Of a DNA stretch of 64,000 nucleotides, positions 13,376 through 39,498 are shown piece by piece. The notes beneath the pieces are model-generated. The model was not told the DNA's origin, did no database searches, and saw only the letters and a program-made list of their open reading frames with translations. Made by a program: the position numbers and the translations under genes. This stretch comes from Micromonospora sp. MH99 (GTDB taxonomy: Bacteria > Actinomycetota > Actinomycetes > Mycobacteriales > Micromonosporaceae), in assembly GCF_021442385.1 (NCBI RefSeq), contig NZ_MUZA01000031.1, positions 1 through 64,000 on the forward strand, given 5' to 3'. Within the stretch, counting starts at the first letter, position 1; the number at the start of each line of letters is the position of its first letter.

Positions 13376-13378
13376 GGC

Positions 13379-15053: not shown

Positions 15054-15065
15054 TGGAGGCGGTTG

Positions 15066-17141: not shown

Positions 17142-17336
17142 ATGCGACTGGTCGTGGACTTCTCCCGCTGCGAGAGCAACGCGGTCTGCGTGGGGCAGGC
17201 CCCCGAGGTGTTCGACGTCGGTGAGGACGACCGTCTGCACATCACCGAACAGCCGCTGGAAGGCTCGCTTGCCAACCGGGTACGCGAGGCCGCCCGCCGC
17301 TGCCCGAAGCAGGCGCTGTCCGTCGTGGACGACTGA
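17142..17336 (+). CDS. ferredoxin, [3Fe-4S] type, P450 electron donor
   Basis: A 64-residue ferredoxin. The cluster ligands are Cys in RCESNAVCVG and in RRCPKQAL. That gives three conserved cysteines, the pattern of single [3Fe-4S] ferredoxins that pass electrons to actinomycete cytochromes P450. AL-VVDD is the usual C-terminal end. It follows the second methyltransferase by 3 bp and is the last gene of that operon. Three P450 genes lie within 7 kb (19861, 21066, 22356), and a fourth P450 domain is fused to a ligase at 35550. It probably serves one or more of these; no ferredoxin reductase is present here. Confidence 0.9.
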   Translation: MRLVVDFSRCESNAVCVGQAPEVFDVGEDDRLHITEQPLEGSLANRVREAARRCPKQALSVVDD

Positions 17337-22277: not shown

Positions 22278-22297
22278 GCCCGCCAGTATGCGCAACC

Positions 22298-22338
22298 AAA
22301 GATACGAGAAACAAGTACTTCCGAGATACGCGAAACAC
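22298..22338. promoter_or_regulatory. divergent promoter region D with two copies of the shared motif
   Basis: Two tandem sites lie between the divergent P450 genes: AAAGATACGAGAAAC at 22298-22312 and CGAGATACGCGAAACAC at 22322-22338. Their minus-strand readings are GTTTCTCGTATCTTT and GTGTTTCGCGTATCTCG. This region must drive the 18-gene plus-strand operon to 40079 as well as the minus-strand operon. TATTAG at 22339-22344 could be the plus-strand -10, 11 bases before ATG 22356. Confidence 0.62.
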
Positions 22339-22355
22339 TATTAGGCTTCCGAGCC

Positions 22356-24811
<2,456 letters not shown>

Positions 24812-24816
24812 CCGCC

Positions 24817-26070
24817 ATGGACACCGAGACGCGCACCGCGCCCGCCCGCGACGCCGCGGCGTTCTACGCCGACGCCCGCCACGACCTGACCGGGCCGCTG
24901 CACGGCGTACGCGTCCTGGACGTCACGAAGGTCTGGTCCGGCCCGATCGCGAGTTGCGTCCTGGCCGACCTCGGCGCGGACGTCCTGCGGGTGGAGATGC
25001 CCGGCAACCGGGAGGGGTTGATGCCCCCGGACATTCCCGGCACCGGCCTGTCCTGGTTCCGCCAGAGCGTGCACCGCAACAAGCGCAGCATCGGGCTCGA
25101 CCTGCGCCGCCCCGGCGCGGCCGAGGTGTTCCTGCGGCTCGTCGCCACCGCCGACGTGGTGGTGGAGAACTACAAGCCCGGCACCCTGGATGCCTGGGGC
25201 GTCGGCTACCAGGAGTGCCGGGCCGTCCGGCCGGACGTGGTGCTGGTCTCCGTCTCCGGCTACGGCCAGTACGGCCCCGACGCGCAGCGACCCGGGTACG
25301 ACCCGACCACCCAGGCCGCCGCCGGCTGGATGGCGCTCAACGGCGAACCCGACGGCGCTCCCTTGAAGGCGCCCACCTTCCTCGCCGACGACCTCGCCGG
25401 GCTGCACGCGGTGATCGGCGCGCTCGCCGCGCTGCGCCACCGCGACCGCACCGGCGAGGGTCAGCACGTCGACGTGAGCATGCTCGACTCGCTGTTGTTC
25501 TCCAGCAACGGCTACCTCACCCTCGGCGCGACCGGGGTGCCACTACGCCGCTGGGGCGACCAGGCCGACTTCGTGGTGCCGGCCGGCTGCTTCCGGTGCG
25601 CCGACGGCCACGTCTACGTGGCGGTCGCACTGGACCGCTCCTGGCGTCGCCTCGCCGAGGTCGTCGGCCGCCCGGAACTGGCCCGCGCACCCGGGTACGC
25701 GACGAACGAGGAACGCCGCGACAACCGCGCCACTGTCAACGCGGTGGTCGCCGACTGGTGCGCCGGGCGGAGGTGCGCCGAGGTGGTCGACACCCTCGAC
25801 GCCAACGGGATCACCGCCGAGCGGGTGCGGACCTTCGCCGAGGCCGCGACCGACCCGCAGGTCCTCGCCCGGGCCATGGTGCAGGAGACGGTGCTGTCCA
25901 ACGGCAGCACCGCGCCGCTGACCGGGCCGGCGGTCAAGTTCTCCCGGACACCGACAGCCGTCCGCTCCGGCGCCCCCGAGCCCGGCGCGGACACCGACCG
26001 GGTCCTCGACGAGGTGGGCGTCGACCCGGCCACGCGGGACCGGCTGCGCGCGCAACGGGCCATCGGATGA
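24817..26070 (+). CDS. class III CoA transferase (CaiB/BaiF family)
   Basis: A 417-residue family III CoA transferase that moves CoA between carboxylic acids. N-terminal blocks are LHGVRVLDVTKVWSGPIAS and LADLGADVLRVEMP. NKRSIGLDLRRPGAAEVF, VVVENYKPGTLDAWGVGY and SVSGYGQYGP are classic family segments. The catalytic Asp is expected in the TFLADDLAG segment. It lies between a thiolase and a FabG-type reductase with 5- and 12-base gaps, so it probably prepares or recycles the CoA ester that enters or leaves the discrete synthase. Such enzymes are more usual in catabolic operons. Confidence 0.9.
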   Translation: MDTETRTAPARDAAAFYADARHDLTGPLHGVRVLDVTKVWSGPIASCVLADLGADVLRVEMPGNREGLMPPDIPGTGLSWFRQSVHRNKRSIGLDLRRPGAAEVFLRLVATADVVVENYKPGTLDAWGVGYQECRAVRPDVVLVSVSGYGQYGPDAQRPGYDPTTQAAAGWMALNGEPDGAPLKAPTFLADDLAGLHAVIGALAALRHRDRTGEGQHVDVSMLDSLLFSSNGYLTLGATGVPLRRWGDQADFVVPAGCFRCADGHVYVAVALDRSWRRLAEVVGRPELARAPGYATNEERRDNRATVNAVVADWCAGRRCAEVVDTLDANGITAERVRTFAEAATDPQVLARAMVQETVLSNGSTAPLTGPAVKFSRTPTAVRSGAPEPGADTDRVLDEVGVDPATRDRLRAQRAIG

Positions 26071-26082: not shown

Positions 26083-26835
26083 ATGACAACGGCAGGCGAC
26101 GCGCCGCGCTGCGCGCTGGTGACCGGGGTGTCCCGGGGAATCGGCCGGGCCGTGGCGCTGCGGCTCGCGGCGCAGGGGTACGCGGTGGCGGGCTGCTACA
26201 GCGCGCCGAGCGAGGCCGCCGACAAGACCCGGGCGGAGGTCGAGGCGTACGGGGTCGGGTCGTGGTTCGGGCCGTGCGACGTGACCGATCCGAACGCTGT
26301 CGACGCGTTCGTCACCGCCGCCGAACGGCACCTCGGGCCGCTCACCGCGCTGGTCAACAACGCCGGCATCACCCGGGACCGGCCGCTGGTGCTGATGGCG
26401 CCGGACGAGTGGCACGACGTGATCGGCACCAACCTCACCGGCACCTGGAACACCTGCCGGACCGTCGCGTTCCGCTTCCTCAAGCGACGCCGCGGCGCCA
26501 TCGTCAACCTGTCCTCGGTGGCCGGGGTCACCGGCAACACCGGGCAGACCAACTACGCCGCCAGCAAGGCCGGCATCATCGGGCTCAGCCTGTCGCTGGC
26601 CAAGGAGGTCGCCGGGTACGGCGTCCGGGTCAACGTCGTCGCCCCCGGTTTCATCGAGACCGACATGACCGCCGCGCTGCCGGCGAAGCTGCGCGAGCAG
26701 GCGCTGGGGCAGATCCCGTTGGGCCGCTTCGGCGCCCCCGCCGACGTCGCCGACCTGGTCGAGTTCCTGCTCTCCGAACGCGCCGGCTACGTCACCGGCC
26801 AGGTGATCCGCGTGGACGGGGGGATCGTGCTGTGA
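26083..26835 (+). CDS. 3-oxoacyl-ACP reductase (FabG-like SDR)
   Basis: A 250-residue short-chain dehydrogenase that reduces beta-ketoacyl-ACP with NADPH. It has the cofactor loop TGVSRGIGRAVAL, VNNAGITRD, the catalytic Ser in NLSSVAGVTGN, Tyr158 and Lys162 in NYAASKAG, and the family end GYVTGQVIRVDGGI. All key residues are present, so it is probably the active ketoreductase of the discrete assembly system. The next gene, a hotdog dehydratase, starts with GTG overlapping its TGA. Confidence 0.93.
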   Translation: MTTAGDAPRCALVTGVSRGIGRAVALRLAAQGYAVAGCYSAPSEAADKTRAEVEAYGVGSWFGPCDVTDPNAVDAFVTAAERHLGPLTALVNNAGITRDRPLVLMAPDEWHDVIGTNLTGTWNTCRTVAFRFLKRRRGAIVNLSSVAGVTGNTGQTNYAASKAGIIGLSLSLAKEVAGYGVRVNVVAPGFIETDMTAALPAKLREQALGQIPLGRFGAPADVADLVEFLLSERAGYVTGQVIRVDGGIVL

Positions 26836-27302
26836 CCGCCGCACCCGCGTTCAGTGCCGCGACCCGGCCCGCCGACACGTACGAGGCCGCTGCCGCGCCG
26901 CTGCCGGCAATCGAGTGGGTCGAGGTGTCCGCCGGCCCGCGCGGCGGGATCAGCCTGCGCGCCGGCACCACGGTCGACGCCGCAGACGTCTACCTGGCCG
27001 GGCACTTCCCCGAGCTGACCGTCTATCCGGGCGTGTTCACCCTGGAGACGATCGGGCAGGCCGTGACGTCGGCCGTCGGCTACTGCGCCGGCCGGCTGCC
27101 CCAGCTGCACCGGCTGCGCTCCGCCCGGTTCCTCGCCCCGCTGCTGGCCGGCGACACGCTCACCGTCGAGGCGTCGGTCGGCCCGGTCGGCGACGACCAG
27201 TCCTTCGACGTCGCCGCCCGGTGCGTACGCGGCGACGGGGTCCACGCGGCGACGGTGCGCGCGGTCTACCGCTGGCCGAGCGCGGACGGCGGGACCGCCT
27301 GA
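26832..27302 (+). CDS. FabZ-like hotdog dehydratase with intact His
   Basis: A 156-residue single-hotdog protein. It has the FabZ active-site strand LAGHFPELTVYPGVFTLE with the catalytic His at about residue 58, but the carboxylate helix reads TLETIGQAV. About 30 poorly conserved residues precede the fold. It probably dehydrates 3-hydroxyacyl-ACP, possibly as a heteromer with the next gene product, which keeps a complementary half of the FabZ signature. GTG at 26832 overlaps the reductase stop, and its stop shares one base with the following ATG. Function in making the double bonds of a polyene-like chain is an inference from the operon. Confidence 0.82.
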   Translation: MTAAPAFSAATRPADTYEAAAAPLPAIEWVEVSAGPRGGISLRAGTTVDAADVYLAGHFPELTVYPGVFTLETIGQAVTSAVGYCAGRLPQLHRLRSARFLAPLLAGDTLTVEASVGPVGDDQSFDVAARCVRGDGVHAATVRAVYRWPSADGGTA

Positions 27303-27775
27303 TGCGACTCGAGCACGGTGAGCTGCGGACCCTGCTGCCGCACCGGTATCCGATGCTGCTGCTCGATCGGGTCGACAGCGTCGAGCCGGGGGTGAGCCTG
27401 GAGGCGGTGAAGGCGGTCACCGGCTGCGAGCCCTGCTACTCCGGGATCGCCGAGGGGCAGGCCCCCGACCGGTACGCCTACCCGGCGTCGCTGCTGATCG
27501 AGTCGTTCGGTCAGGGCGCGGCGGTGCTGTGGCTGCTGTCGCGCGGGCCGGGCACGACCGGGCTGCCGATGTTCACCGCGGCCCGGGACTGCGTGCTGCT
27601 GCGCCAGGTGTACCCGGGCGACGTGATCCGGCACCGGGTGCGCCTGGAACAGGTCGTGCACGGGGCCGCGTTCGCCGCCGGATCCAGCTGGGTGGGGACC
27701 GACCAGGTGGCGGAGTTCGGCTCGATGATGGCCGTCGTCCGACCGGCCGACGCCATCGCGGAGCGGAAACGATGA
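27302..27775 (+). CDS. FabZ-like hotdog protein lacking the GHFP His
   Basis: A 157-residue hotdog protein. It opens with LPHRYPMLLLDRV, the classic FabZ start, and keeps the helix with the catalytic carboxylate (LLIESFGQGAAVLWL, Glu about 67). Where FabZ has GHFPG-x-PVMPG it reads RYAYPASLL, so the active-site His is missing. It therefore looks like the non-His half of a two-gene dehydratase whose partner is encoded just upstream. Alternatively it is a carrier-protein binding or thioesterase-like relative. The pairing recalls the heteromeric dehydratases of aryl polyene systems. ATG 27302 overlaps the upstream stop by one base. Confidence 0.78.
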   Translation: MRLEHGELRTLLPHRYPMLLLDRVDSVEPGVSLEAVKAVTGCEPCYSGIAEGQAPDRYAYPASLLIESFGQGAAVLWLLSRGPGTTGLPMFTAARDCVLLRQVYPGDVIRHRVRLEQVVHGAAFAAGSSWVGTDQVAEFGSMMAVVRPADAIAERKR

Positions 27776-27793: not shown

Positions 27794-28048
27794 ATGAGTG
27801 AACGCGACACGCACATGGCGGAGCTGCGGGAGATCGTGGCGGAGGTGCTCGAGTTGGAACCCGAGGAGGTCGCCGACACCGCAGACTTCGTCGAGGAGTA
27901 CGAGGCGGACTCGTTGCGGGCGATCGAGATCCTGGCCCGGATCGAGAAGAAGTACAAGGTGGAGATCCCGCAGGCCGAGTTGAACGAGATGCGCAGCCTC
28001 AAGGCCGTCCACGAGGTGGTGGCGCGACACGCCGGCTGGCAGGACTGA
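27794..28048 (+). CDS. acyl carrier protein of the discrete synthase
   Basis: An 84-residue ACP with the phosphopantetheine site YEADSLRAIEIL (Ser about 40). It has a highly acidic helix I-II region (LELEPEEVADTADFVEEYEAD) and a basic patch KKYKVEIP. It is typical in length and composition of type II PKS/FAS carriers and carries the growing chain for the reductase, dehydratases and ketosynthases encoded around it. AGAGGAAGAGGG just before ATG 27794 is the ribosome site. The first ketosynthase starts 2 bp after its stop. Confidence 0.93.
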   Translation: MSERDTHMAELREIVAEVLELEPEEVADTADFVEEYEADSLRAIEILARIEKKYKVEIPQAELNEMRSLKAVHEVVARHAGWQD

Positions 28049-28050: not shown

Positions 28051-29256
28051 GTGCACCGCGTGGTCGTCACCGGGCTCGGACCGGTGTCCGGCATCGGCAT
28101 CGGCGTGAACGAGTTCACCGACGGGCTGCGCTCCGGCCGCTCGGCCGCCGCGCCCATCACGAGCTTCGACGCGAGCGGGTTCCCGCACCACTTCGCCGGT
28201 GAGGTGCCCGCGTTCCGGCCGGAGGCGCTGCTGCGGCGGCTGCGGGTCGACGAGTGGGGCCGCTCGGCGCTGTTCGCGGCGGCGGCGGCCCGGCTGGCCG
28301 CGATGGACGCGGGTCTGTCGCTGCCGGCCACCGACCCGGCGCGCGTCGGCGCGGTCGTCGGCACCACCAGCGGCGAGTCCACTGTGGTGGAGCAGCTCAC
28401 CGCCGAGCTGGTGGCCGGTGGCTACCCGGCCATGTCCGCCGAGGCGCTGCGCCAGGCGCCGGCCGAGCGGCTGTCCTACGCGGTGAGCGCGGAGCTGGGG
28501 CTGGCCGGGGAGTCGGTCACCCTCACCACCGCCTGCTCGGCCAGCAACTACGCCATCGGGTACGCGTACGACCTGTTGTGCTGGGGTGAGGCGGACGTGA
28601 TGCTGGCCGGCGGCGCCGATTCGGTGTGCCGGTGGGCGCACGCCGGCTTCTACCGGCTCGGCGCGTTGACCGAGCGGGCGTGCCGGCCGTTCGACCGGGA
28701 CCGCTCCGGCATCCTCACCGGTGAGGGCGGCGCGGCGCTGGTGCTGGAGACCCTGGAGCACGCGCAGGACCGGGGCGCCCGGATCTACGCCGAGGTGCTC
28801 GGGTACGGCGTCAACTGCGACGCCCACCACATGGTCGCGCCCAACGAGGAGAGCGTCGCGGCGTGCATGCGGCTGGCGCAGGCGAACGCCGGGGTCAAAC
28901 CGGAGGACATCGACTACATCAGCACGCACGGCACCGGCACGCCCGCCAACGACCTGTGCGAGGCGCGGGCCATCCGGGCGGTGTTCGGCGACCGGGTGCC
29001 GCCGGTCAGCTCGATCAAGTCGATGCTCGGGCACACGATGGGCGCGGCGAGCGGGTTCGGCGCGATCGCCACGACGCTGGGCATCCGGCACGGGTTCCTG
29101 CCTCCGACCATCAACTGGGCCAACCCGGACCCGGAGCTGTCGTGGATCGATCCGGTGCCGAACACGGCCCGCCCGGCCACGGTGCGGGTGGCGCAGAACA
29201 ACGGCTTCGCGTTCGGCGGCAACAACGCCATCACGATCTTCGGGGCGATCCGGTGA
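28051..29256 (+). CDS. beta-ketoacyl-ACP synthase with complete Cys-His-His triad (FabF-like)
   Basis: A 401-residue thiolase-fold ketosynthase. The nucleophile is Cys162 in TTACSASNYAIG. His293 lies in STHGTGTPANDLCE and His328 in MLGHTMGAASG, so the decarboxylative condensing triad is intact. GFAFGGNNAITIFG is the usual C-terminal strand. It probably forms a dimer with one of the degenerate ketosynthase-like proteins encoded downstream, as in KS-alpha/chain-length-factor pairs. GTG at 28051 is 2 bp after the ACP stop, and its TGA overlaps the next GTG. Among the four ketosynthase-like genes it is the most canonical. Confidence 0.93.
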   Translation: MHRVVVTGLGPVSGIGIGVNEFTDGLRSGRSAAAPITSFDASGFPHHFAGEVPAFRPEALLRRLRVDEWGRSALFAAAAARLAAMDAGLSLPATDPARVGAVVGTTSGESTVVEQLTAELVAGGYPAMSAEALRQAPAERLSYAVSAELGLAGESVTLTTACSASNYAIGYAYDLLCWGEADVMLAGGADSVCRWAHAGFYRLGALTERACRPFDRDRSGILTGEGGAALVLETLEHAQDRGARIYAEVLGYGVNCDAHHMVAPNEESVAACMRLAQANAGVKPEDIDYISTHGTGTPANDLCEARAIRAVFGDRVPPVSSIKSMLGHTMGAASGFGAIATTLGIRHGFLPPTINWANPDPELSWIDPVPNTARPATVRVAQNNGFAFGGNNAITIFGAIR

Positions 29257-30287
29257 CCGCCCTGGTGAGCGGCTGGGGAGTGCTCAGCGCGGCCGGGGAG
29301 TCGGTCACCGAGCTGCTGGCCGCCGTCCGCGCCGGCACGGTCGTCGGCGTCGACGTGGGCGACCGCTTCGACGAGCCGCTGCCCACGGCGCAGGCCCCGG
29401 CGATCGCCGACTTCGACGTACGCCGACTGCTGGGCCGCAAGGGCACCAGCTTCCTGGACCGGGCTACCGCGCTGGCGATGGTGGCCTGCGGGCGGGCACT
29501 GGCCGACGGGGGGCTCACCCCCGACGACGACAACCGGCACCGCGTCGGCGTGGTGCTGGGCACCACCACCGGCAGCCTGAAGTCGACGATGGACTTCTCC
29601 CGCGAGACGCTGGTGCAGGACAAGCCGTACCTGGTCAACCCGGTGTTGTTCCCGAACACGGTGATGAACTGCGCCAGCGGGCAGGCCGCGATCCGCTACG
29701 GGCTGCGCGGCGTCAACGCCACAGTGGCCGGCGGCCCGCTCGCCTTCCTGTACGCGCTGCGCTACGCGCTCAACGCCCTGCGCCGGGGATACGTCGACGC
29801 CCTGCTGGTCGGCGGGGTCGAGGAGTACACGCCGAACACGGCGTGGGCGGCGGAGCTGACCGGCGCCGGCCCGGCCGGTGAGGCCGCGGCGGTCTACCTG
29901 CTGCGCCGCCCGACGCCCGGCCTCACCGGGGCTCCGCGCGCCCAGGTGCTCGCGGTGGCCACCGGTTTCCAGCCGGAGCAGGGCGTCGACGGGCTCACCG
30001 GCTGCGTACGCCGGGCGCTGGCCACGGCCAAGGTCCGCCCGCCCGACGTGTGGGCAGTCGCGAGCGGCGATCTCGACGCCGACAGCCTGTCCGAGGTGCT
30101 GCCGGCGGCCGCGCAGCGGTTGTCGGTGCGTCCGGCGCTCGGTGACTGTCAGTCCGCCACCGGCGCGCTGGCGCTGGGCGTGCTGCTGGGCCGCTACGCC
30201 GAGGACCCGGCCGCACGCGGTCGGCCCGCGCTGATCGTCGGACGCTCCCGCGACGGCGCGGTCGCCGCGGCAGTGGTGCGGGGGTAG
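29253..30287 (+). CDS. ketosynthase-like protein with lost His residues (CLF-like)
   Basis: A 344-residue thiolase-fold protein. The Cys position is kept (VMNCASGQAAI, Cys about 140) and the start (SGWGVLSAAGESV) resembles ketosynthases. The HGTGT motif is absent, replaced by VWAVASGDLDAD, and the second His motif reads LGDCQSATGALALG. It cannot catalyse ordinary decarboxylative condensation and most likely serves as a chain-length-factor-type partner of the 28051 or 30291 protein. Classical chain length factors lose the Cys instead, so this arrangement is different. Both ends overlap or nearly touch neighbouring genes. Confidence 0.8.
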   Translation: MTALVSGWGVLSAAGESVTELLAAVRAGTVVGVDVGDRFDEPLPTAQAPAIADFDVRRLLGRKGTSFLDRATALAMVACGRALADGGLTPDDDNRHRVGVVLGTTTGSLKSTMDFSRETLVQDKPYLVNPVLFPNTVMNCASGQAAIRYGLRGVNATVAGGPLAFLYALRYALNALRRGYVDALLVGGVEEYTPNTAWAAELTGAGPAGEAAAVYLLRRPTPGLTGAPRAQVLAVATGFQPEQGVDGLTGCVRRALATAKVRPPDVWAVASGDLDADSLSEVLPAAAQRLSVRPALGDCQSATGALALGVLLGRYAEDPAARGRPALIVGRSRDGAVAAAVVRG

Positions 30288-30290: not shown

Positions 30291-31406
30291 ATGGCCGCCA
30301 CCATCACCGCCACCGCCGTCCGTACCTGCTTCGGCGACGGCCCGGCCACCGTCGCGGCGCTGCTGCGCGGCGCGTGCGGCGCCGCCGGGCTGCGGCGCTC
30401 GGACCCGGCCCGGGTGGGGGTCGGCCACGGCTACCCGATCGATGACGACGCGCCGTTCGGCCCGAGCCGCTGGCTGACCGACTGCGTGGCCGAGGCCGTC
30501 GCCGCCGCCGGCCTCGACGCACGTCGACAGCGGGTGGTGAGCCTCGTCGGCACCGGGCTGCGCGAGTCGGCCGAGGTGGAACGGGCGGCCCTCGCGGGCT
30601 CGGTGGACTTTCCGGCCGAGCGGCTGCACTTCGCCGACGCCGTCGCCAGCGCGGTACCCGGCGTGCAGCGGGTGGTCACCCTGGCCAACGCGTGCAGCGC
30701 CGGCGGTTCCGCCCTCGCCCTGGCACAGGACCTGGTGGAGACCGGCGAGGCGGACGCCGTGCTGGTCGGCGGCACCGATGGCAGCAGCGCCTCCATGCTG
30801 GCGATGATCGGCCGGGTGGCCGCCCGGCCGACCGGCCGGGTGCGGCCCTTCGACGCCGACCGGGCCGGTGTGCTGCTCGGCGACGGCGCGGCGGTGCTGG
30901 TGGTCGAGCCGGAGCGACCCGGCCGTGGGTTGGCCCGGCTGCTCGCCACCGGGTTGTCCTGCGACGCCGGGCACGAGACGGCGCCGGACCCGGCGGGCAT
31001 CCTGCGGGCGGTCCGCGACGCCCACCAGCGCGCCGAGCGCCGGCCCGAGCAGGTCGACCTGGTCCTGGCGCACGGCACCGGCACGACGCTGAACGACGAG
31101 ACCGAGGCGCGTGTCATCGCCGAGGTGTTCGCCGGGTGCGAGCCCGGCCCCCTGGTCACCGCCCTCAAGGGCGCCGTCGGCCACACGTCGGGAGGTTCGG
31201 CGCTGCTCAGCGTCGCCGTCGCCGTCGAGATCCTGCGCACCGGTCGGGTGCCGCCGGTGGTCGGCCTGACCCGGCCGGCGCCCGAGGCGGCCGCGCTGCG
31301 GCTGGTCCGCGAGGCGGCCGCACGGGCGGACGTGCGGGTGGCGCAGGTGGACGCGTTCGGCTTCGGCGGTCTCAATGCCGTCACCCTCCTGGAGGCGCTG
31401 CGATGA
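30291..31406 (+). CDS. second beta-ketoacyl synthase with complete triad
   Basis: A 371-residue ketosynthase, diverged from the 28051 protein. Cys135 lies in LANACSAGGSALAL, His261 in LAHGTGTTLNDETE and His298 in AVGHTSGGSALLSV. All three residues are present although the N-terminal part is shortened (start ITATAVRTCFGDG). The end AFGFGGLNAVTLLE is normal. It probably pairs with the degenerate protein encoded immediately downstream, so the operon seems to hold two ketosynthase heterodimers. One may handle initiation and the other elongation, by analogy with aryl polyene systems. ATG 30291 is 3 bp after the previous stop, and its TGA overlaps the next ATG. Confidence 0.9.
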   Translation: MAATITATAVRTCFGDGPATVAALLRGACGAAGLRRSDPARVGVGHGYPIDDDAPFGPSRWLTDCVAEAVAAAGLDARRQRVVSLVGTGLRESAEVERAALAGSVDFPAERLHFADAVASAVPGVQRVVTLANACSAGGSALALAQDLVETGEADAVLVGGTDGSSASMLAMIGRVAARPTGRVRPFDADRAGVLLGDGAAVLVVEPERPGRGLARLLATGLSCDAGHETAPDPAGILRAVRDAHQRAERRPEQVDLVLAHGTGTTLNDETEARVIAEVFAGCEPGPLVTALKGAVGHTSGGSALLSVAVAVEILRTGRVPPVVGLTRPAPEAAALRLVREAAARADVRVAQVDAFGFGGLNAVTLLEALR

Positions 31407-32392
31407 CGGACCGCGTCCACGCCGGGCACCTCGCGCCGACACCGGATCGCGGCGTGCCGCCGCCCGCGTCCCGCCGCCCGGGCCAGGTGACCCGGCCCGG
31501 TCGGTCCATCACCGACGCGCGCTCCGGAGCCGACCCGGATCGACAGGTGGCCGCCGTTCTCGCGGCGGCGCTGCACCTGCCCGGAGCAGACCTGCCGGCT
31601 GGCGTCGCCGACGAGGAACCCGCCTGCCCACCCGAGCGGGCCGCCGACCTGCTCGGCCGCAAGGGTCTGCTGGCCAAGGAGCCGGCCACCCGACTCGCCC
31701 TCTGCGCCGTGCATCGGGCGCTGGGCCTCGCGCCGAAGGCGCCCCGCCCGAGCGGACCGGCGGATCCGCGTACCGCGGTGGTGGTCAGCTCCAACCTCGG
31801 CAACGTCGCCACCGTCGGCGACATCGCCCGCCGGCTGCGCGAGGGCGGCCCACGCGAGGTCGGCCCGTTGGAGGCGCCGAACGCCTCCAGCAACGTCATC
31901 GCCGGCGCGATCGCGATCTGGTTCCGCTTCGGGGGCCCCAACCTCACCGTCTGCTCCGGCGCGACCGCCGGCCTGGACGCGATCTGGCTGGCCGGGCTGC
32001 TGCTGCGTACCGGCCGCGCCGACCGGGTCGTCGTGGTCGGCACCGAGCCGGACGACCCGCAGGCCCAGGCCCTGCACGCCGCCCGGGACGGCGTCACCGA
32101 CGCCCGACCGCTGCGCGCCGGGGCGGCCTGCCTGCTGCTCGGCCGGGTCGACGCCGCGCCGCACCCGTTGGCCCTGCTGGGGCCCGTGCGGGCGGGCGTT
32201 CCCGTCGACGGCACACCTCGCGGCCTGCTCATCGACGCGGCCGCCGTGGCGGGCGACCACTACGGCGCGGCGGGAGTCGTGCACACGGCGCTGGCCGTAC
32301 GCCTCGCCGCGACCAACGCGACGGTCACGGTCCGCTGCGGCGACCCCGTCGACGGCATGCGCGAACTCGACGTCCGGGCGGCCCGGCGATGA
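31403..32392 (+). CDS. shortened ketosynthase-like protein (KS partner)
   Basis: A 329-residue thiolase-fold remnant. A Pro/Arg-rich N-terminal stretch of about 60 residues is followed by ketosynthase-like segments (AVVVSSNLGNVATVGD, PNASSNVIAGAIAIWF, LTVCSGATAGLDAIWLAGLL). Cys sits at the nucleophile position in VCSGATAG. No HGTGT or GH motif occurs, and the C-terminal condensing half is much reduced (ATNATVTVRCGDPVDG). It is probably a structural partner of the 30291 ketosynthase. The gene is coupled on both sides by ATGA overlaps (31403-31406, 32389-32392). An acyltransferase or specificity role is possible. Confidence 0.75.
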   Translation: MTDRVHAGHLAPTPDRGVPPPASRRPGQVTRPGRSITDARSGADPDRQVAAVLAAALHLPGADLPAGVADEEPACPPERAADLLGRKGLLAKEPATRLALCAVHRALGLAPKAPRPSGPADPRTAVVVSSNLGNVATVGDIARRLREGGPREVGPLEAPNASSNVIAGAIAIWFRFGGPNLTVCSGATAGLDAIWLAGLLLRTGRADRVVVVGTEPDDPQAQALHAARDGVTDARPLRAGAACLLLGRVDAAPHPLALLGPVRAGVPVDGTPRGLLIDAAAVAGDHYGAAGVVHTALAVRLAATNATVTVRCGDPVDGMRELDVRAARR

Positions 32393-33198
32393 GCGGCGCA
32401 CCACCGGCGGTCGCCGTGCACCGGCTCGCCGGCCCGGACACCGGGACGCCCACCGTGCTGCTCGCGCACGGCATGTCCGACGCCTGGCGCAGCTGGCGGC
32501 CCCTGGCGCAGCGGCTGCCCTCCGGCTGGCGGCTGCTCGCGGCCGAGCTGCCGTGGAAGGCCGGCACCGATCACCGCTGGCGGCGTCGGGGCACCCCGGG
32601 CGCCTGGCTCGCCGCCGCCGTCCGGGCCCTGGCCACGCCCCCCGACGTCGTGGTCGGCCACTCGCTCGGCGCGAACGCGGTGCTGGAGATGCTCGCCACC
32701 GAACCGGACGTCGCCCCGCGCGGAGCCATGCTCATCGCGCCGTTCTACTGCCCGCCCGATCTGCCGATCACCTGGGCGGTGCACGAGCGGGCGCAGGCCA
32801 ACTTCGTCCAGATCATCGACGAGGGGCTGCGCCACCGCCTCGGCCCCCGGCTGGCCGACCTGGACGCCGAGACCCTGACCGCCATGCGGGACATCATGGT
32901 GGACCGGATCGGCCCCGTCGGTTTCACCACCCTGTTCGACCACTTCACCGCGACCGCCGGCCTGCCGCTGCACGCGGTGACCGTGCCGACCATGGTGCTC
33001 ACCGGCGGCCGGGACCCCGGCCTCGACGGCCCGCGCGTCGGCGCGCTGCGGGCCGAACTTCCCGACGCGCACGTCGTCGTGGAGCCGGACTTTCACCACT
33101 TCTGTCATCTCGACCGGGCGGCCGAGGTGGCCCGACACGTCGCGGGCTTCGTCGAGAAGGTCTGCCCCGACCCCGCGATCCGAGGAGGTACGCCGTGA
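32389..33198 (+). CDS. alpha/beta-hydrolase
   Basis: A 269-residue alpha/beta-hydrolase fold enzyme. LLAHGMSDAWRSWRPLA holds the oxyanion-hole HG. The nucleophile elbow is VVGHSLGANAVLEM, the acid strand is VLTGGRDPG, and the base His is expected in FHHFCHLDRAAEV. It could release the chain from the ACP or hydrolyse an ester or thioester intermediate. Its position between ketosynthase-like genes and a hotdog thioesterase fits a release or editing role but does not prove it. It overlaps both neighbours by 4 bp. Confidence 0.85.
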   Translation: MSGAPPAVAVHRLAGPDTGTPTVLLAHGMSDAWRSWRPLAQRLPSGWRLLAAELPWKAGTDHRWRRRGTPGAWLAAAVRALATPPDVVVGHSLGANAVLEMLATEPDVAPRGAMLIAPFYCPPDLPITWAVHERAQANFVQIIDEGLRHRLGPRLADLDAETLTAMRDIMVDRIGPVGFTTLFDHFTATAGLPLHAVTVPTMVLTGGRDPGLDGPRVGALRAELPDAHVVVEPDFHHFCHLDRAAEVARHVAGFVEKVCPDPAIRGGTP

Positions 33199-34103
33199 CC
33201 ACGGCGGTTGAGAACGCATCCGTGACGCTGTCGGCCCGGCCCGGGTTCGAGGGCGCGAACATCCGCACCTGGATCGGCTTCAAACACTTCGCGTACCTGG
33301 TGGAGCAGGGTGTGCTGCAGTGGTTCCGGGAGCGGGGGCACGGCCCCGGCCAGCTCTACCACCAGCACGGGGTGGGGTTGTCGATCCGGGACTGTTCGCT
33401 GCTGCTGCCCGCCGTCCTCGACGTCGATGACACCGCGACGGTGGTGGTGACCCCCGCCGCCAACGGCCGGTTCGCGGTGCGGATGGGTGTGCGCCGCGAC
33501 GCCGACGTCACCGTGTGCCGGGCCCGGGTGCGGGTGGCTCTGGTGCGGGAGGCGGACGTACCGCAGGGGGCGCCGCTGCCGGCGGAGCTGGCCGGCCTGG
33601 TCGAGGAGCCGGCCGCTGGCGAGCCGGGCGCCCCCGCCGGCGCGGACCCGGCCGATGAGTTGCGCGCCGCCGGAGCGGGGTTCGTGTGGCAGTGGCGGGT
33701 GCCCTACTTCTACTGCCAGTACTCGCAGCGGATGCAGCACTCCGGGTACGTCCGGCTGCTGGAGGAGGTGGTCGACCGCTACCTCGCCGACCGGGGTGTG
33801 TCGGTGGGCCGGATGCTGCGCGAGCGGGGCTGGATCCCGGTGGTGTCCCGCGCCCGCGTCGAGGTGCTCGGCGACGCCCACCTCGACGAGCCCGTGTGGG
33901 TCACCTTCACCGTCACCGACGTGCTCAAGGACGTCACGTACGACGCGCGGATGGACTGCCACGTCGTGCGCGACGGTCGCCTGGTCCGGGTGGCGACGGC
34001 CAGCATCCTGCACGGGTACGCGGTCAGCCGCGGCCCCGAGGCGGGCCGGCTCGCCACCCTGGACGGGGACACCGTGGCGGCGTTGACCGGCGGGCGGCGG
34101 TGA
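33195..34103 (+). CDS. double-hotdog acyl thioesterase-like protein
   Basis: A 302-residue protein made of two hotdog-like halves joined by a Pro/Ala-rich linker (about residues 136-158). The first half has WIGFKHFAYLVEQGVLQWF and QHGVGLSIRDCSLLLPAVL. The second has YCQYSQRMQHSGYVRLLEE, where a 4HBT-type enzyme would have D-x-x-x-H-V-N. It has the size of acyl-ACP or acyl-CoA thioesterases of the 4HBT/FadM type. GAGGAGG at 33182-33188 serves the GTG start at 33195. A thioesterase, or a dehydratase-like non-hydrolytic hotdog, are both possible. It lies in the long operon between a hydrolase and a DsbA-fold isomerase. Confidence 0.68.
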   Translation: MTTAVENASVTLSARPGFEGANIRTWIGFKHFAYLVEQGVLQWFRERGHGPGQLYHQHGVGLSIRDCSLLLPAVLDVDDTATVVVTPAANGRFAVRMGVRRDADVTVCRARVRVALVREADVPQGAPLPAELAGLVEEPAAGEPGAPAGADPADELRAAGAGFVWQWRVPYFYCQYSQRMQHSGYVRLLEEVVDRYLADRGVSVGRMLRERGWIPVVSRARVEVLGDAHLDEPVWVTFTVTDVLKDVTYDARMDCHVVRDGRLVRVATASILHGYAVSRGPEAGRLATLDGDTVAALTGGRR

Positions 34104-34795
34104 TGGCCGCCAAGCAGCCCCGCCTGTACTTCTCCTTCCGCAGCCCGTACAGCTGGCTGGCCGTGGAGCGGCTGACCCGGGCACTGGGCCGGCCGCAGGA
34201 GGTGCTGGAGTTCATCCCGTACTGGGACCCGGACGCGCGGACCGAGGCGGCGCTGACCGCCCGGGGCGGCGCCTTCCACTACGTGCAGATGAGCAAGCCC
34301 AAGCACCTGTACCTGCTCCAGGACGCCAAGCGGCAGGCCCAACGGCTGGGCCTGCCGATGCGCTGGCCGATCGACATCGACCCGTGGTGGGAGGTCCCGC
34401 ACCTGGGTTGGCTGGCCGCCCGGGAGCAGGGCGCGGGGGAGGCGTTCTACCGGGAGGTGATCGCCGCCCGCTGGCAGCGGGGCGAGGACGTGTGCACCCC
34501 CGAGGTGATCGCCGAGGTCGCCGAGCGGGCCGGGGTGGACCCGGCGGTGGTGCTCGGCGCGGTCGAGGACGAGGGCGTCCGGGCGGCCGGGGCGCACTGC
34601 CTGCTGCGGGCGTACGAGGAGGACATCTTCGGCATCCCCTACCTGCGGCTGGGCCCACACCGGTTCTGGGGCGTGGACCGGGTCGACGACTTCCTCGCCG
34701 CGTACGCCGAGCGGACCGGCACTCCTGTCGCGCCGCCCGCGGTGCCGGCGGGCGTGGGCGGGTACGACACGGACACCGGAGGCGGCTGTGGCTGA
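34103..34795 (+). CDS. DsbA-fold protein, 2-hydroxychromene-2-carboxylate isomerase-like
   Basis: A 230-residue thioredoxin/DsbA-fold protein of the HCCA isomerase-kappa GST group. The start LYFSFRSPYSWLAVERL carries the SPYS motif in place of a redox CxxC. The helical insert is followed by the cis-Pro region FGIPYLRLGPHRFWGVDR. Known relatives isomerise ring-fission products of aromatic catabolism with glutathione, which actinomycetes generally lack, so another thiol or a thiol-independent isomerisation is likely here. It overlaps the hotdog gene by one base and the aldolase gene by 8. A role in cis-trans isomerisation of a double bond in the acyl chain is speculative. Confidence 0.8.
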   Translation: MAAKQPRLYFSFRSPYSWLAVERLTRALGRPQEVLEFIPYWDPDARTEAALTARGGAFHYVQMSKPKHLYLLQDAKRQAQRLGLPMRWPIDIDPWWEVPHLGWLAAREQGAGEAFYREVIAARWQRGEDVCTPEVIAEVAERAGVDPAVVLGAVEDEGVRAAGAHCLLRAYEEDIFGIPYLRLGPHRFWGVDRVDDFLAAYAERTGTPVAPPAVPAGVGGYDTDTGGGCG

Positions 34796-35546
34796 GCGAC
34801 GGGACCCGGAACAGGAACGCGCCCACCGCCGCCGGCAGTTGGTCCTGACGCTGCGCGCGTTCGCCCTGGCGGGGTTCGACGAGGGCGCCGGCGGCCACGT
34901 CACCGCCCGGGACCCGATCGAGCCGGACACCTTCTGGATCAACCCGTTCGCCCGGCACTTCGCCCACGTCCGCGACGACGACCTGCTGCGCGTCGACCAC
35001 ACAGGTGACGTGGTCGACGGCTCCGGCCGGATCAACCCCGCCGGCTACGCCATCCACTCGGCCATCCACAAGGCCCGCCCGGACGTGGTGGCCGCCGCGC
35101 ACACCCACTCGATCCACGGTCGGGCGTTCTCGGCGCTCGGCCGGCCGCTCGCGCCGATCACCCAGGACGCGTGCGCGTTCTTCGAGGACCACGAGGTCCA
35201 CGACGAGTACGGCGGGGTCGTCCTCGACGGCGCGGAGGGGGACCGGATCGCGGCGACGCTGGGCGCCGGCAAGGCCGTCGTGCTGCGCAACCACGGGCTG
35301 CTGACGGTCGGCGGCTCGGTGGCCGAGGCGGCCTGGTGGTTCCTGGCGATGGACCGCTGCTGCCAGGTGCAGCTGCTCGCCCAGGCGGCCGGCGAGCTGG
35401 TGGTGATTCCCGCCGACGCGGCCCGGGCGGCGCGGGCGGACATCGGCACCGCGCAGATCGCCCGACTGAACTTCCGGCCGGTCGCGGAGCACGTCCTGGC
35501 CGTCAGCCCCGACCTCACGCACGGCACCACGCCCAGACAGGAGTGA
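34788..35546 (+). CDS. class II aldolase/adducin-family protein
   Basis: A 252-residue protein of the zinc-dependent class II aldolase fold, related to fuculose-phosphate aldolase. Zinc-site motifs are visible: AAAHTHSIHGRAFS (His-x-His) and VVLRNHGLLTVGGSVAEA. GGHVTARDPIEP near the N-terminus is also typical. Non-sugar members of this family occur in degradation pathways and some biosynthetic clusters, where they catalyse retro-aldol or decarboxylation reactions. GTG 34788 lies inside the end of the upstream gene (8-bp overlap). The fused ligase-P450 gene starts 3 bp downstream. Confidence 0.88.
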   Translation: MAERRDPEQERAHRRRQLVLTLRAFALAGFDEGAGGHVTARDPIEPDTFWINPFARHFAHVRDDDLLRVDHTGDVVDGSGRINPAGYAIHSAIHKARPDVVAAAHTHSIHGRAFSALGRPLAPITQDACAFFEDHEVHDEYGGVVLDGAEGDRIAATLGAGKAVVLRNHGLLTVGGSVAEAAWWFLAMDRCCQVQLLAQAAGELVVIPADAARAARADIGTAQIARLNFRPVAEHVLAVSPDLTHGTTPRQE

Positions 35547-35549: not shown

Positions 35550-38330
35550 GTGGCCGAGCTGCTGAAGACCATGGTCCGGGACCGGGCCGGCGACGTCGCG
35601 CTGACCGACGAGCGGACGACCCGGACGTGGGCGGAGCTGGACCGGTCGGTGGACCGGTGGATCGGCGTGCTGCGCGGGGCCGGCCTGGACGTCGGTGACC
35701 GGGTGGCGTTCGTGCTCGGCAACCGGCACGAGACGTTCGAGGCGCTGCTCGCCTGCGTGCACGCGGGTCTGGTGGCGGTGCCCGTCAACTGGCACCTCAC
35801 CGCGCCGGAGATCGCCCACATCCTGACCGACTGCGGCGCGCGGGCGGTGCTCACCGAGGCGGCGTACGCGCCGACGGTGCGCGACGCGGTGGCGCGTACG
35901 CCGGGCGGCCCCGACCTGCTGGTGACTGTGGACGGCGGGGACGGCTTCACGGCGGTGCACGACCTGCCGGCGGGCCCGGGCGTTCCGGCGCTCTCCGGTG
36001 GCGTGCTGCTCTACACCTCGGGCACCAGCGGACGCCCCAAGGGGGTGGTCAACCCGCTGCTGAAGGTCGGTGCCCCGATCGACCGGGTGGCCGCCACCAC
36101 CGAGGCGCTCGGCGGCGGCCTGGGCATTCCGACGCAGGGGCAGGCGCTGCTGGTCGGCCCCTGGTACCACTCGGCGCAGTTGTTCTTCGCCCAGTTCCCG
36201 CTGCTGCGCGGGTGCGGGCTGGTGCTGCGCCGCGGGTTCGACCCGGTCGAGGTGCTGCGCGTGATCGACGACGAGAAGATCACCATCAGTCATCTGGTGC
36301 CGACCCAGTTCATCCGCCTGCTGCGGGTCGACGCGGCAACCCGGGCGGCGTTTTCCGGCGCCAGCCTCGCCCGGATCTGGCACGGCGGCGGCCCGTGCCC
36401 GCCGGAGACCAAGCGGGCGATGATCGAGTGGTGGGGGCCGGTGTTCGTGGAGTACTACGCCGCGACCGAGGCCGGCATCGTCACCCTCGCCGACTCGCAC
36501 ACCTGGCTGGCCCGGCCGGGCACGGTGGGCCGGCCGGCGCCGCCGACCGAGGTGGTGGTGGTCGACGACGAGGGCCGGCCGGTGCCCGCCGGGCAGGAGG
36601 GCCGGGTGGCCGTACGGCGGCCCCCGGGCCGGGGGTTCCACTACCACAACGCTCCGGAGCAGACCGAAAAGGCGCACGTCGCTCCGCACACCTTCACCGT
36701 CGGCGACCTGGGCCACCTGGACGCCGACGGCTACCTGTTCCTCACCGGCCGCTCGGCGGAGCTGATCGTCACCGGCGGCGTGAACGTCTATCCCGCCGAG
36801 GTGGAGGCGGTGCTGTCGACGCACCCCGCCGTGCGGGACAGCGTGGTCATCGGCGTGCCCGACGAGGAGTTCGGCGAGCAGGTCCGGGCGGTGGTGCAGC
36901 TCGACCCGGCGTGGCCGGCCCGGGGCATCGAGCAGGTCCTGGACGCGCACTGCCGGACCAGCCTGGCCGGCTTCAAGGTGCCGCGTTCGTACGAGGTGAT
37001 CGACCGGATCCCGCGCGAGCCGACCGGCAAGGTGCCCCGCCGGGCGTTGCGGGACCGCTACCGGACCGCCCCGGTGTCGCCGGGCCTGCTCGCGGACCCG
37101 GGGACCTTCCTGGCCGGCGTGCCGTACGACGAGTTCGCCCGTCGCCGACGGGAGGCGCCGGTGGCCTGGGTCGAGGAGGTCGAGCTGACCCGCACCGACC
37201 ACGACCGGTCGGTGCGGTCCCGGGGCCCGGGCTTCTGGGCCGTCACCCGCCACGCGGCGGTGTCCACGGTGTCCCGCGACCCGGCGACGTTCTCGTCGGC
37301 GGCCGGCGGGGCGTTCCTCGCCGACCCCCGGACCCCGGAGGATCTGGACCGCAACCGGCAGCTTCTGATCAACATGGACGCTCCGGAGCACGCCTGGGTG
37401 CGGCGGCTGGTGGCGGGGGCGTTCACACCCCGCGCGGTGGGCCGCCTCGGCGAGCTGGTGACCCGCCATGCCGAGGAGGTCGTCGCCCGGGCGGTGGCCG
37501 CGCGTGACATCGACGTGGTGACGGACCTCGCCGCCGAGCTGCCGCTGCTCGTCCTCACCGATCTGCTCGGTGTGCCCCAGGAGGACCGGCGGCTGCTGTT
37601 CGAGTGGAGCAACAACCTGGTCGGGTTCGACGATCCCCGCTACGGCGGTGCCAGCGTGCAGCGCTACCGGGACACCTTCGCGGCGGCCTTCTCGTACGTG
37701 CGGCAGCTGGCGGCCCAGCGACGGGCCGCGCCCGGCGACGACCTGCTGAGCCTCCTCGTGCACGCCGAGGCCGACGGTCGGGGTCTGACCGACGCGCAGC
37801 TGTGTCAGCTGTGGTTGCTGCTGGTCATCGCCGGCAACGAGACGACCCGGCACCTCATCTCGAACGGGGTGCAGGCGTTGCTGGAGCACCCCGGGCAGCG
37901 GGACCGGCTGATCGCCGAGCCCGACCTGACCGCGAGCGCGGTCGAGGAGCTGCTGCGCTGGGTCACGCCGATCATGCAGTTCCGCCGCACCGCCACCCGC
38001 GACACGGTCCTCGACGGGACCCGCATCGCCGCCGGGGACAAGGTGGTCGTCTACTACGTCTCGGCCAACCGGGACGAGGCCGCGTTCGCCGATGCCGACC
38101 GGCTGGACCTCGCCCGCGATCCCAACCCGCATCTGGCGTTCGGTATCGGTCCGCACTTCTGCCTGGGCGCGCACCTGGCCCGGTTGGAGATGGCGGCCTT
38201 CCTCACCGCGATCCGTCCGCACCTGGCCCGGCTCCGACTGACCGGTCCGGTACGCCGGATGCGGACCAACTTCATGAACGCCGTCACCGCGATGCCCGCG
38301 CGCTTCGACGTCGCGCCGGAAGGGGAGTGA
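35550..38330 (+). CDS. natural fusion: acyl-CoA ligase (N) - cytochrome P450 (C)
   Basis: One uninterrupted 926-residue reading frame. Residues about 1-505 are a complete ANL-family acyl-CoA ligase: LLYTSGTSGRPKGVV, the core YYAATEAGIVT, GDLGHLDADGYLFLTGRSAELIVTGGVNVY, and EPTGKVPRRALRDR with the C-terminal Lys near 493. From about 515 a full P450 follows (GVPYDEFARRRREAPVAW, I-helix IAGNETTRHL near 760, RRTATRDT, and GIGPHFCLGAHLARLEM with heme Cys about 871). No linker longer than about 15 residues separates them. The P450 heme loop resembles the CYP125/142 sterol and fatty-acid oxidases. GTG 35550 has AGGAG upstream. The fusion suggests the acid is activated and the same chain oxidised, or an oxidised terminal carboxyl captured as CoA ester. 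Confidence 0.92.
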   Translation: MAELLKTMVRDRAGDVALTDERTTRTWAELDRSVDRWIGVLRGAGLDVGDRVAFVLGNRHETFEALLACVHAGLVAVPVNWHLTAPEIAHILTDCGARAVLTEAAYAPTVRDAVARTPGGPDLLVTVDGGDGFTAVHDLPAGPGVPALSGGVLLYTSGTSGRPKGVVNPLLKVGAPIDRVAATTEALGGGLGIPTQGQALLVGPWYHSAQLFFAQFPLLRGCGLVLRRGFDPVEVLRVIDDEKITISHLVPTQFIRLLRVDAATRAAFSGASLARIWHGGGPCPPETKRAMIEWWGPVFVEYYAATEAGIVTLADSHTWLARPGTVGRPAPPTEVVVVDDEGRPVPAGQEGRVAVRRPPGRGFHYHNAPEQTEKAHVAPHTFTVGDLGHLDADGYLFLTGRSAELIVTGGVNVYPAEVEAVLSTHPAVRDSVVIGVPDEEFGEQVRAVVQLDPAWPARGIEQVLDAHCRTSLAGFKVPRSYEVIDRIPREPTGKVPRRALRDRYRTAPVSPGLLADPGTFLAGVPYDEFARRRREAPVAWVEEVELTRTDHDRSVRSRGPGFWAVTRHAAVSTVSRDPATFSSAAGGAFLADPRTPEDLDRNRQLLINMDAPEHAWVRRLVAGAFTPRAVGRLGELVTRHAEEVVARAVAARDIDVVTDLAAELPLLVLTDLLGVPQEDRRLLFEWSNNLVGFDDPRYGGASVQRYRDTFAAAFSYVRQLAAQRRAAPGDDLLSLLVHAEADGRGLTDAQLCQLWLLLVIAGNETTRHLISNGVQALLEHPGQRDRLIAEPDLTASAVEELLRWVTPIMQFRRTATRDTVLDGTRIAAGDKVVVYYVSANRDEAAFADADRLDLARDPNPHLAFGIGPHFCLGAHLARLEMAAFLTAIRPHLARLRLTGPVRRMRTNFMNAVTAMPARFDVAPEGE

Positions 38331-38334: not shown

Positions 38335-39498
38335 ATGCCACTGGACCTGCACTGGTTCCTGCCGACGCACGGAGATGGCCGTGACCTGGCCGAGCCCGCC
38401 CGGGGTGGCGGGAGCCGGCCGGCCCGGATCACCCGCCGGCCGCCGGACATCGGCTATCTGGCGCAGGTGGCGCGCGCCGCAGACCGGCTGGGTTTCGCCA
38501 GTGTGCTCACGCCCGCCGGGCTGTTCTGCGAGGACCCGTGGGTGGTGGCGTCCGCGCTTGCCGCGCAGACGCAGCGGCTGAAGTTCATGATCGCGTTACG
38601 GCCGGGGCTCGCCTCGCCCACGCTCGTCGCCCAGATGGCCGCGTCGCTGCACCGTGTCTCGGCGGGCCGGGTGCTGCTCAACATCGTGGCCGGCAGCGAC
38701 CCGGACGAGCAGCGCCGCTACGGCGACTGGCTGGACCACGACGCCCGTTACGCCCGCGCGGAGGAGTTCCTCACCATCCTTGGTGGACTGTGGTCCGGTC
38801 AGCCGGTCGACCACGACGGCGAGCACTACCGGGTGAAGTCCGCCCTGCTGGCCCGGCCGCCGGCCACCGCTCCGGCCGTGTTCCTGGGCGGGTCGTCGCC
38901 GGCGGCGCAGCGAGCGGCCGCCCGGCACGCGGACGTGTACCTGGCCTGGGGGGAGACGCCGGCCCAGCTCGGCGAGCTGCTGGGTCGGGCACGTGAGCAG
39001 GCGGCGGAGGCCGGTCGCACGCTGCGCACCGGGAGTCGACTCCACGTCATCACCAGGGACACCGCGCGGGAGGCGTGGGCCGAGGCGGACCGTCTCCTCG
39101 CCGGTGTCGACCAGGCGCGGATCGCCGCCGCTCGGCAACGCTTCGCCCGTACCGACTCGGAGGGCCAGCGGCGGGCGGCGGCGCTGCACGCCGACGGCAA
39201 CGCCCGGATGGAGGTGTACCCGAACGTCTGGGCGGGCTACTCCCTGATCCGGCCCGGTGCCGGCGCGGCGCTGGTGGGCAGTCACGAGGAGGTCGCGGAG
39301 CGGATCGCCGAGTACCACGCCGCCGGGGTGGACCATCTGATCCTGTCCGGGCAGCCGCACCTGGAGGAGGCGTACTGGTTCGGCGAGGGCGTGCTGCCGC
39401 TGCTGCGCCACGACGGCCTCCTGGATGGCGGGACCGACGGGGACGGCACGCACGCCGAGGGCGGCCGGCGGACTCCGGAGCTGGCGGTGGGCCGATGA
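38335..39498 (+). CDS. SsuD-like FMNH2-dependent monooxygenase
   Basis: A 387-residue luciferase-family enzyme close to alkanesulfonate monooxygenase. It has LHWFLPTHGDGRDL at the start, RPPDIGYLAQVARAADRLGF, LKFMIALRPGLASPTLVAQMAASL, GRVLLNIVAGSDPDEQRRYGDWLDHDARY and AYWFGEGVLPLL near the end. The SsuD active-site elements appear preserved. SsuD cleaves C-S bonds of sulfonates with FMNH2 from SsuE, and a reductase is encoded directly downstream (4-bp overlap). In this cluster the substrate is more likely a pathway intermediate. A rare TTA leucine codon lies at 38596-38598. Confidence 0.9.
   Translation: MPLDLHWFLPTHGDGRDLAEPARGGGSRPARITRRPPDIGYLAQVARAADRLGFASVLTPAGLFCEDPWVVASALAAQTQRLKFMIALRPGLASPTLVAQMAASLHRVSAGRVLLNIVAGSDPDEQRRYGDWLDHDARYARAEEFLTILGGLWSGQPVDHDGEHYRVKSALLARPPATAPAVFLGGSSPAAQRAAARHADVYLAWGETPAQLGELLGRAREQAAEAGRTLRTGSRLHVITRDTAREAWAEADRLLAGVDQARIAAARQRFARTDSEGQRRAAALHADGNARMEVYPNVWAGYSLIRPGAGAALVGSHEEVAERIAEYHAAGVDHLILSGQPHLEEAYWFGEGVLPLLRHDGLLDGGTDGDGTHAEGGRRTPELAVGR

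Follow-up and report, generated by a model that had tools for sequence, protein, structure and literature searches.

A ligase-P450 fusion in one reading frame

The window analyzed here is a stretch of 64,000 nucleotides from Micromonospora sp. MH99 (contig NZ_MUZA01000031.1), and it encodes, at positions 35,550-38,330 of the forward strand, a protein in which an acyl-CoA ligase is joined to a cytochrome P450. The gene occupies a single open reading frame (ORF) of 926 codons without an internal stop, as seen in both the ORF list and the translation, and it closes a cassette that resembles type II polyketide synthase (PKS) gene sets. An earlier note, made from the letters alone, had described a complete ligase and a complete P450 in this one frame, and translation, Pfam, and phmmer bear that description out. 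In the 926-residue protein, Pfam places AMP-binding at residues 10-358 (8.4e-64), AMP-binding_C at residues 417-494 (9.9e-16), and p450 at residues 726-888 (1.2e-21), an architecture that recurs in other genomes, and phmmer aligns ligases (feruloyl-CoA synthetase, FadD5, and FadD13) to residues 21-504 and P450 chains to residues 514-922 (CYP125MRCA at 8.6e-126). The ligase motifs, read by eye in the translation and from alignment, are the A3 loop (YTSGTSGRPKG, residues 155-165) and the A10 lysine (Lys494); those of the P450, also read by eye in the translation, are AGNETT (residues 761-766), ExxR (residues 800-803), and the heme cysteine. All of the motifs that the note had listed are present, the cysteine at residue 871 where it had been put at about 871. 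With both AMP-binding domains, the A3 loop, and the A10 lysine, the first part is a member of the ANL acyl-CoA ligases, and the second, with the heme-loop cysteine, ExxR, and an I-helix AGxxT across a complete P450, is a cytochrome P450. Among the matches listed, the ligase domain stays under the cut-off of each of 25 NCBIfam families (of 112), the best being PRK12406 (403 versus 701 bits), and it is not placed in FadD4 either (357 versus 850 bits). The P450 domain, whose heme loop had been likened to that of CYP125/142, is CYP125-like: it is 50.1% identical to CYP125MRCA, which its name marks as a reconstructed ancestor, and its identity to the steroid C26-monooxygenase 7qke is 37.9%; membership of the CYP125 family is conventionally taken to require about 40% identity or more to its members.

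The content of guanine plus cytosine (GC) by codon position in the fused frame is gene-like (0.76/0.50/0.95), the putative GTG start lies 3 bases after the upstream stop codon, and an ORF of 1412 codons antisense to the gene is taken for the usual shadow of high-GC DNA. A structure model built on a shallow alignment of 35 rows has a mean predicted local distance difference test (pLDDT) score of 79.6 and a predicted template modeling (pTM) score of 0.56, with pLDDT below 50 at residues 506-514. The best 50 Foldseek rows listed are all ANL enzymes; therefore, the P450 half rests on sequence. The gene can be regarded as a confirmed, true ligase-P450 fusion with a predicted product of about 100 kDa.

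A total of eight Micromonospora orthologues, the window included, all have 926 codons. The seven closest to the window protein are 95, 95, 91, 86, 86, 86, and 86% identical to it, each in a single frame and of equal length from the aligned start, and the nearest protein of a named relative is that of M. lupini Lupac 08 (95%). Around positions 37,080-37,110, named beforehand as the place where a stop or frameshift would part the two enzymes, there is neither: in the eight separately assembled genomes the gene is of equal length and has no stop there. Purifying selection is evident on both domains, the ratio of non-synonymous to synonymous substitution rates (dN/dS) in five pairs of these orthologues being 0.14-0.29 in the ligase and 0.16-0.21 in the P450; over the 35 junction codons of the five pairs it is 0.42-0.86. 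Between residues 480 and 560, the eight have a single ATG, GTG, or TTG in common, a GTG at residue 524 with at most 3 Shine-Dalgarno bases, and an internal start yielding a separate P450 was rejected on this ground. The shared length of 926 codons, the low dN/dS, and the weakly supported sole internal start therefore favor one predicted polypeptide rather than a separately started P450.

Distribution and origin of the fused state

Of 160 Micromonospora genomes searched at a match limit of E 1e-125, 29 have a match: 9 are fused, 18 encode the two enzymes as separate neighbors, and 2 have the genes apart. The fused genomes (the window, G187, G432, G461, G545, G478, G096, G082, and the more distant G453) each carry the fusion in one frame; the 18 with separate neighbors were assigned by coordinates except for G549, where the neighbor is visible only in the locus itself and the P450 is broken over two frames. 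In the Amycolatopsis group, 11 of 80 genomes match, with 8 fused, 1 adjacent pair (G778), and two genomes (G796 and G786) otherwise arranged. Saccharothrix obliqua (L032) is also fused, with a long Ala/Ser/Pro-rich junction. Four wider samples, which overlap, were searched as well. In the family sample, 46 of 200 genomes match at E 1e-90 and four of these are full-length in one frame, all from the window's genus; in the order sample, 16 of 298 match at E 1e-125, eight at full length. The class sample gave 2 matches among 197 genomes at E 1e-125 (the window and one separate pair), and the phylum sample 31 among 198 at E 1e-90, only the window being full-length. Thus, no full-length match in one frame was found in the other 196 class genomes or 197 phylum genomes at these strict limits, with at most four candidates scored per genome. 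On plasmids, 40 records have one place covering 80% of the query, and the 4 examined of the 20 listed all carry separate genes. One of these loci (L021, 7547-13171), on a Mycobacterium avium plasmid, has SCP2, acyl-CoA synthetase, P450, dehydrogenase, and ferredoxin genes in a row, unfused and with overlapping genes. A single genome, G171, has two different ligase-P450 pairs of the same family on two contigs (L006 and L109).

Of 21 distinct cassette pairs encoded separately, 18 share four bases (ATGA or GTGA) between the ligase stop codon and an ATG or GTG in the frame of the P450, the exceptions being L005, L031, and L119 (G549); therefore, a small shift would suffice to fuse the genes. One tree was built per domain with 43 rows, 17 of them fused, drawn from 62 loci; the rows left out were 12 taken to be copies, 4 identical at the compared ends, and 3 single-part loci (L132, L133, and L135). 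Of the 12, L003, L006, L009, L104, L105, and L126 match retained rows exactly across the ligase-frame translation compared, L110, L111, L112, L125, and L134 overlap with loci retained from the same genomes, and the fused L127 (G812) is absent though distinct (865 of 922 residues identical to L027). The best tree of each domain has four changes between the fused and split states (4-5 across bootstrap trees for the ligase, 3-4 for the P450), and well supported branches alone force three and two changes, respectively. Constraining all fused proteins to a single clade costs 90.9 (ligase) and 66.5 (P450) log-likelihood units, and such a clade is rejected for both domains by the approximately unbiased (AU) test (p of 4e-5 and 0.0035); it should be noted that each tree carries a flag for long branches. 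In both, every member of the eight-protein Micromonospora clade is fused. Junctions differ between clades, and that of L116 contains an in-frame Met at the expected start of a separate P450. Because one fused clade is rejected and four state changes are seen, the fusion probably recurred independently, which is the simplest reading of the trees if, as we infer, the changes run in the direction of fusion.

The gene cassette around the fusion

The fusion is the last element of a cassette of 15 gene functions, found in the same order, thiolase first and P450 last, in all 10 of the genomes that were chosen for a fused or adjacent ligase and P450 (five fused and five separate; three from the Amycolatopsis group and one, G252, from another family). 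The order is thiolase, CoA-transferase, ketoreductase (KR), dehydratase (DH), acyl carrier protein (ACP), four genes like those of ketosynthases (KS), alpha/beta hydrolase, thioesterase, DsbA-like protein, class II aldolase, ligase, and P450 (Table 1). Gene order agrees where genes match in 14 cassette loci (L029 being the G280 locus again), L031 excepted. The components expected of a polyene or cinnamoyl type II PKS, namely a KS with its partner, a KR, a DH, and an ACP, are present in all 10 genomes and not in L031. This Streptosporangiaceae metagenome-assembled genome keeps the cassette flanks, and positions 4252-7609 of the locus have no ACP, KS, or hydrolase match.

Table 1. Features of the fused gene and its surroundings in the window; starts of the cassette genes are inferred.
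Feature	Position	Strand	Evidence
Fused acyl-CoA ligase-P450, 926 aa	35550..38330	+	Open frame, Pfam, equal-length orthologues in eight Micromonospora genomes (window included)
Ligase domain, about residues 1-496	35550..37037	+	Pfam, phmmer, Foldseek
Junction/linker, about residues 497-525	37038..37124	+	Low model confidence; equal length in eight Micromonospora
CYP125-like P450 domain	37125..38330	+	phmmer 514-922 to CYP125MRCA, 50.1% identity
Thiolase, first cassette gene	23672..24811	+	Steroid 3-ketoacyl-CoA thiolase NCBIfam, 591 vs cut-off 515 bits
Class III CoA-transferase	24763..26070	+	Pfam CoA_transf_3 5e-113
FabG-like ketoreductase	26083..26835	+	TIGR01830 302.5 bits, cut-off 297.75
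First FabA/FabZ-like dehydratase	26832..27302	+	Pfam FabA 4.2e-6
Second FabA/FabZ-like dehydratase	27314..27775	+	Pfam FabA 9.7e-8; FabZ 2.3e-21, below cut-off
Acyl carrier protein	27794..28048	+	Pfam PP-binding 2.3e-15
Ketosynthase, Cys present (TTACSA)	28051..29256	+	Sequence by eye
KS-like partner without Cys, chain-length-factor type	29253..30287	+	Sequence by eye
Second ketosynthase, Cys present (NACSAGG)	30291..31406	+	AmcF-like below cut-off; by eye
Second KS-like partner	31403..32392	+	Pfam ketoacyl-synt 1.1e-12; AmcG-like below cut-off
Alpha/beta hydrolase	32404..33198	+	
Thioesterase-like (4HBT_2)	33195..34103	+	
DsbA-like protein, possible polyene isomerase (role inferred)	34106..34795	+	Pfam DSBA 1.8e-21
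Class II aldolase/adducin family protein	34788..35546	+	NF004855 367 bits, cut-off 255
Small ferredoxin, candidate P450 electron donor	17142..17336	+	

The listed ORF at 26,915-27,775 begins in the wrong frame and stands for the two dehydratases. By eye, the catalytic cysteine is present in the first and third KS-like genes and absent from the second; the fourth has a cysteine but is short. Isomerases such as Sky27 are DsbA-like, and the cassette has a DsbA-like gene that is a candidate for such a role. In 6 of the 10 cassette genomes, a homologue of the small ferredoxin immediately precedes the thiolase. No nonribosomal peptide synthetase (NRPS) condensation domain was found among the window ORFs scanned, only part of the window being annotated, and a similar gene set occurs in a Streptomyces plasmid cluster with NRPS genes.

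Several further genes flank the cassette. Just upstream, positions 19,861-23,630 hold three further P450 genes, two on the reverse strand and one on the forward strand. Positions 10,146-15,115 hold fatty acyl-AMP ligase-like, ACP-like, methyltransferase, and DHB-AMP ligase-like genes, the last of which has a match of at least 43% identity in 9 of the 10 cassette genome stretches. At 8903-10,054 of the reverse strand is an acyl-CoA dehydrogenase-fold protein whose best score, below the cut-off, is to an HsaA-like flavin monooxygenase. After the fusion, positions 38,335-40,079 encode an alkanesulfonate monooxygenase-like protein and then an FMN reductase; a monooxygenase 60-64% identical to the former is encoded upstream on the opposite strand in G280, G808, G453, G252, and G431, and one adjoins the displaced P450 of G467 and G550. 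A large LuxR-family regulator with an AAA domain (GerE, AAA_16; 40,780-43,827, reverse strand) adjoins the cassette.

Proposed role, alternatives, and known systems

Known CYP125, CYP124, and CYP142 enzymes oxidize a terminal methyl group. The reading that we prefer, in which belief and doubt are about evenly balanced, is that the fused two-enzyme protein would carry out the last pair of steps of the PKS-like cassette, oxidizing the product acid and activating it with CoA. The cassette would probably build a reduced, polyene-derived, and possibly aryl acid, to be released by the thioesterase or the hydrolase. The CYP125-like P450, fed by a separate ferredoxin, could then oxidize the methyl group at the far end, perhaps all the way to a carboxylic acid, and the ATP-dependent ligase would convert a carboxyl group to a CoA (or AMP) ester for use by the CoA-transferase and thiolase of the cassette. 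The fusion, which probably arose several times from an overlapping gene pair, would hold the two steps together. Omega-oxidation and CoA activation of a PKS-derived acid are favored because the CoA-transferase and thiolase of the cassette need CoA esters, because of the family functions of the two enzymes, and because Kcn27, a P450 of the related kitacinnamycin pathway, carries out three oxidations of one terminal methyl according to PMC6510318. Oxidizing a chain end and making a CoA ester of it, which the earlier note thought might occur by direct channeling, is thus still plausible given the CYP125-like P450 and the thiolase score (591 versus 515 bits), but the sterol setting that went with it is unsupported.

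A number of observations weigh against the proposed last-step role. First, the fusion is dispensable, since the two genes are separate neighbors in 18 of the 29 matching Micromonospora genomes. Second, the pair can be dispersed: G467 and G550 have the ligase after the aldolase but the P450 at a distance of 76-77 kb, next to an SsuD-like gene. In the Amycolatopsis group, it is the P450 that follows the aldolase in both G796, whose ligase is about 86 kb distant, and G786, which has no ligase in the 7 kb read. Third, L031 has the pair and most of the flanks, but its sequence, which is free of N, yields no match to ACP, KS, or hydrolase even at E 1e-3. Fourth, the structure prediction (pTM 0.56) contains no confident domain contact or arrangement. 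The P450 could also act on an ACP- or CoA-bound chain rather than the free acid, and one fusion event followed by several fissions, for example at L131, is a less simple but conceivable history.

That the fusion is neutral, one chain without functional gain formed from an overlapping stop and start that fuse easily, is a serious possibility to which we give somewhat less than even weight. The four-base overlap in 18 of 21 separate pairs makes a small change enough, 20 of the 29 matching Micromonospora genomes are unfused, four genomes have the genes apart or the ligase missing, and the junction dN/dS is that of a loosely constrained linker, but the eight-member Micromonospora clade is fused throughout, 8 of 11 Amycolatopsis-group genomes are fused, and the state recurs in separate clades. 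The benefit of the fusion may be slight, given the unfused Micromonospora, though the Amycolatopsis group is mostly fused. An order of steps with the ligase first, in which it would couple the released PKS acid to CoA and the P450 would hydroxylate the resulting CoA-bound chain while the one protein retains it, is in our judgment possible but less likely than not; the ligase is N-terminal, it precedes the P450 in fused genes and adjacent cassette pairs alike, and the thiolase and CoA-transferase imply CoA esters in the pathway, but CYP125-type enzymes act on the free sterol before CoA ligation.

Side-chain catabolism of sterols or terpenoids, the former being the setting proposed in the earlier note, is improbable. 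The P450 is CYP125-like and the thiolase passes the cut-off for steroid 3-ketoacyl-CoA thiolases, the only one in the genome to do so, but this sole steroid-type thiolase lies inside the PKS cassette, in which KS, ACP, KR, and DH are present in 10 of 10 genomes. The genome has nine matches to HsaA, the product of a ring-degradation gene, none of which passes the cut-off (best 200 versus 450 bits), a result without a positive control as 0 of 14 control genomes pass either. The place of the gene at the end of a conserved type II PKS-like cassette leaves the sterol role unsupported. An artefact of sequencing or assembly, or a frameshift that joins two genes, is scarcely credible, since, although other relatives have two genes, 18 genomes are fused (nine Micromonospora with the window included, eight of the Amycolatopsis group, and one Saccharothrix).

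Repeated fusion of the same neighbors is good genetic evidence that the CYP125-like P450 and the acyl-CoA ligase share one substrate, and the protein is a natural one-chain candidate for an oxidize-and-activate catalyst. A larger claim is put forward only tentatively: that these proteins form a new class of bifunctional acyl-CoA ligase-P450, evolved several times in one uncharacterized family of actinobacterial type II PKS, which might keep the substrate on one protein between activation and oxidation and yield an omega-oxidized, CoA-activated polyketide building block. The fusion also marks a conserved actinobacterial PKS cassette that can be traced in M. lupini, A. azurea, and S. obliqua, for the product of which no name was found in the open PubMed Central (PMC) literature.

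Among known systems, the cassette resembles the polyene and cinnamoyl type II PKS sets (epoxinnamide, kitacinnamycin, and youssoufene), with which it has in common two pairs of KS and partner, a KR, DHs, an ACP, and a possible isomerase. The set proposed for epoxinnamide, as given in PMC9321520, comprises two pairs of KS and chain-length factor, a KR, two DHs, and an isomerase, and polyene sets of this kind served as probes in PMC6510318. Unlike them, the cassette adds a thiolase, a CoA-transferase, a class II aldolase, and the ligase-P450, and the ORFs scanned include no NRPS condensation domain. The KS-like genes match AmcF and AmcG of cispentacin below cut-off; the cispentacin paper (PMC10698177) never mentions a P450, Micromonospora, or Amycolatopsis. 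The plasmid pairs L021, L022, and L023 likewise have an acyl-CoA synthetase and a P450 side by side, but they are 29-39% identical, have other neighbors, and are separate genes. The P450 domain shares with CYP125, CYP124, and CYP142 (8vxi, 7qke, and 2wm4) an alignment of about 400 residues, the AGNETT helix, and the heme loop, and the ligase shares both ANL domains, A3, and A10 with feruloyl-CoA synthetase (8wev), FadD5 (8r2q), and FadD13 (3r44); those solved P450 chains are single-domain and those ligases single enzymes, whereas here the two are fused and set in a PKS cassette. Natural fusions of P450 to a reductase, a dioxygenase, and an acyl-CoA dehydrogenase are known, and the present protein is like them in having a functional partner in one chain, but here that partner is an adenylate-forming ligase. 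In agreement with the earlier note, which knew of no such protein, no ligase-P450 fusion was recognized in the open PMC literature on P450 fusions, a library that omits most subscription journals. P450 fusions as such are therefore known, and it is the ligase as the fusion partner that appears to be new.

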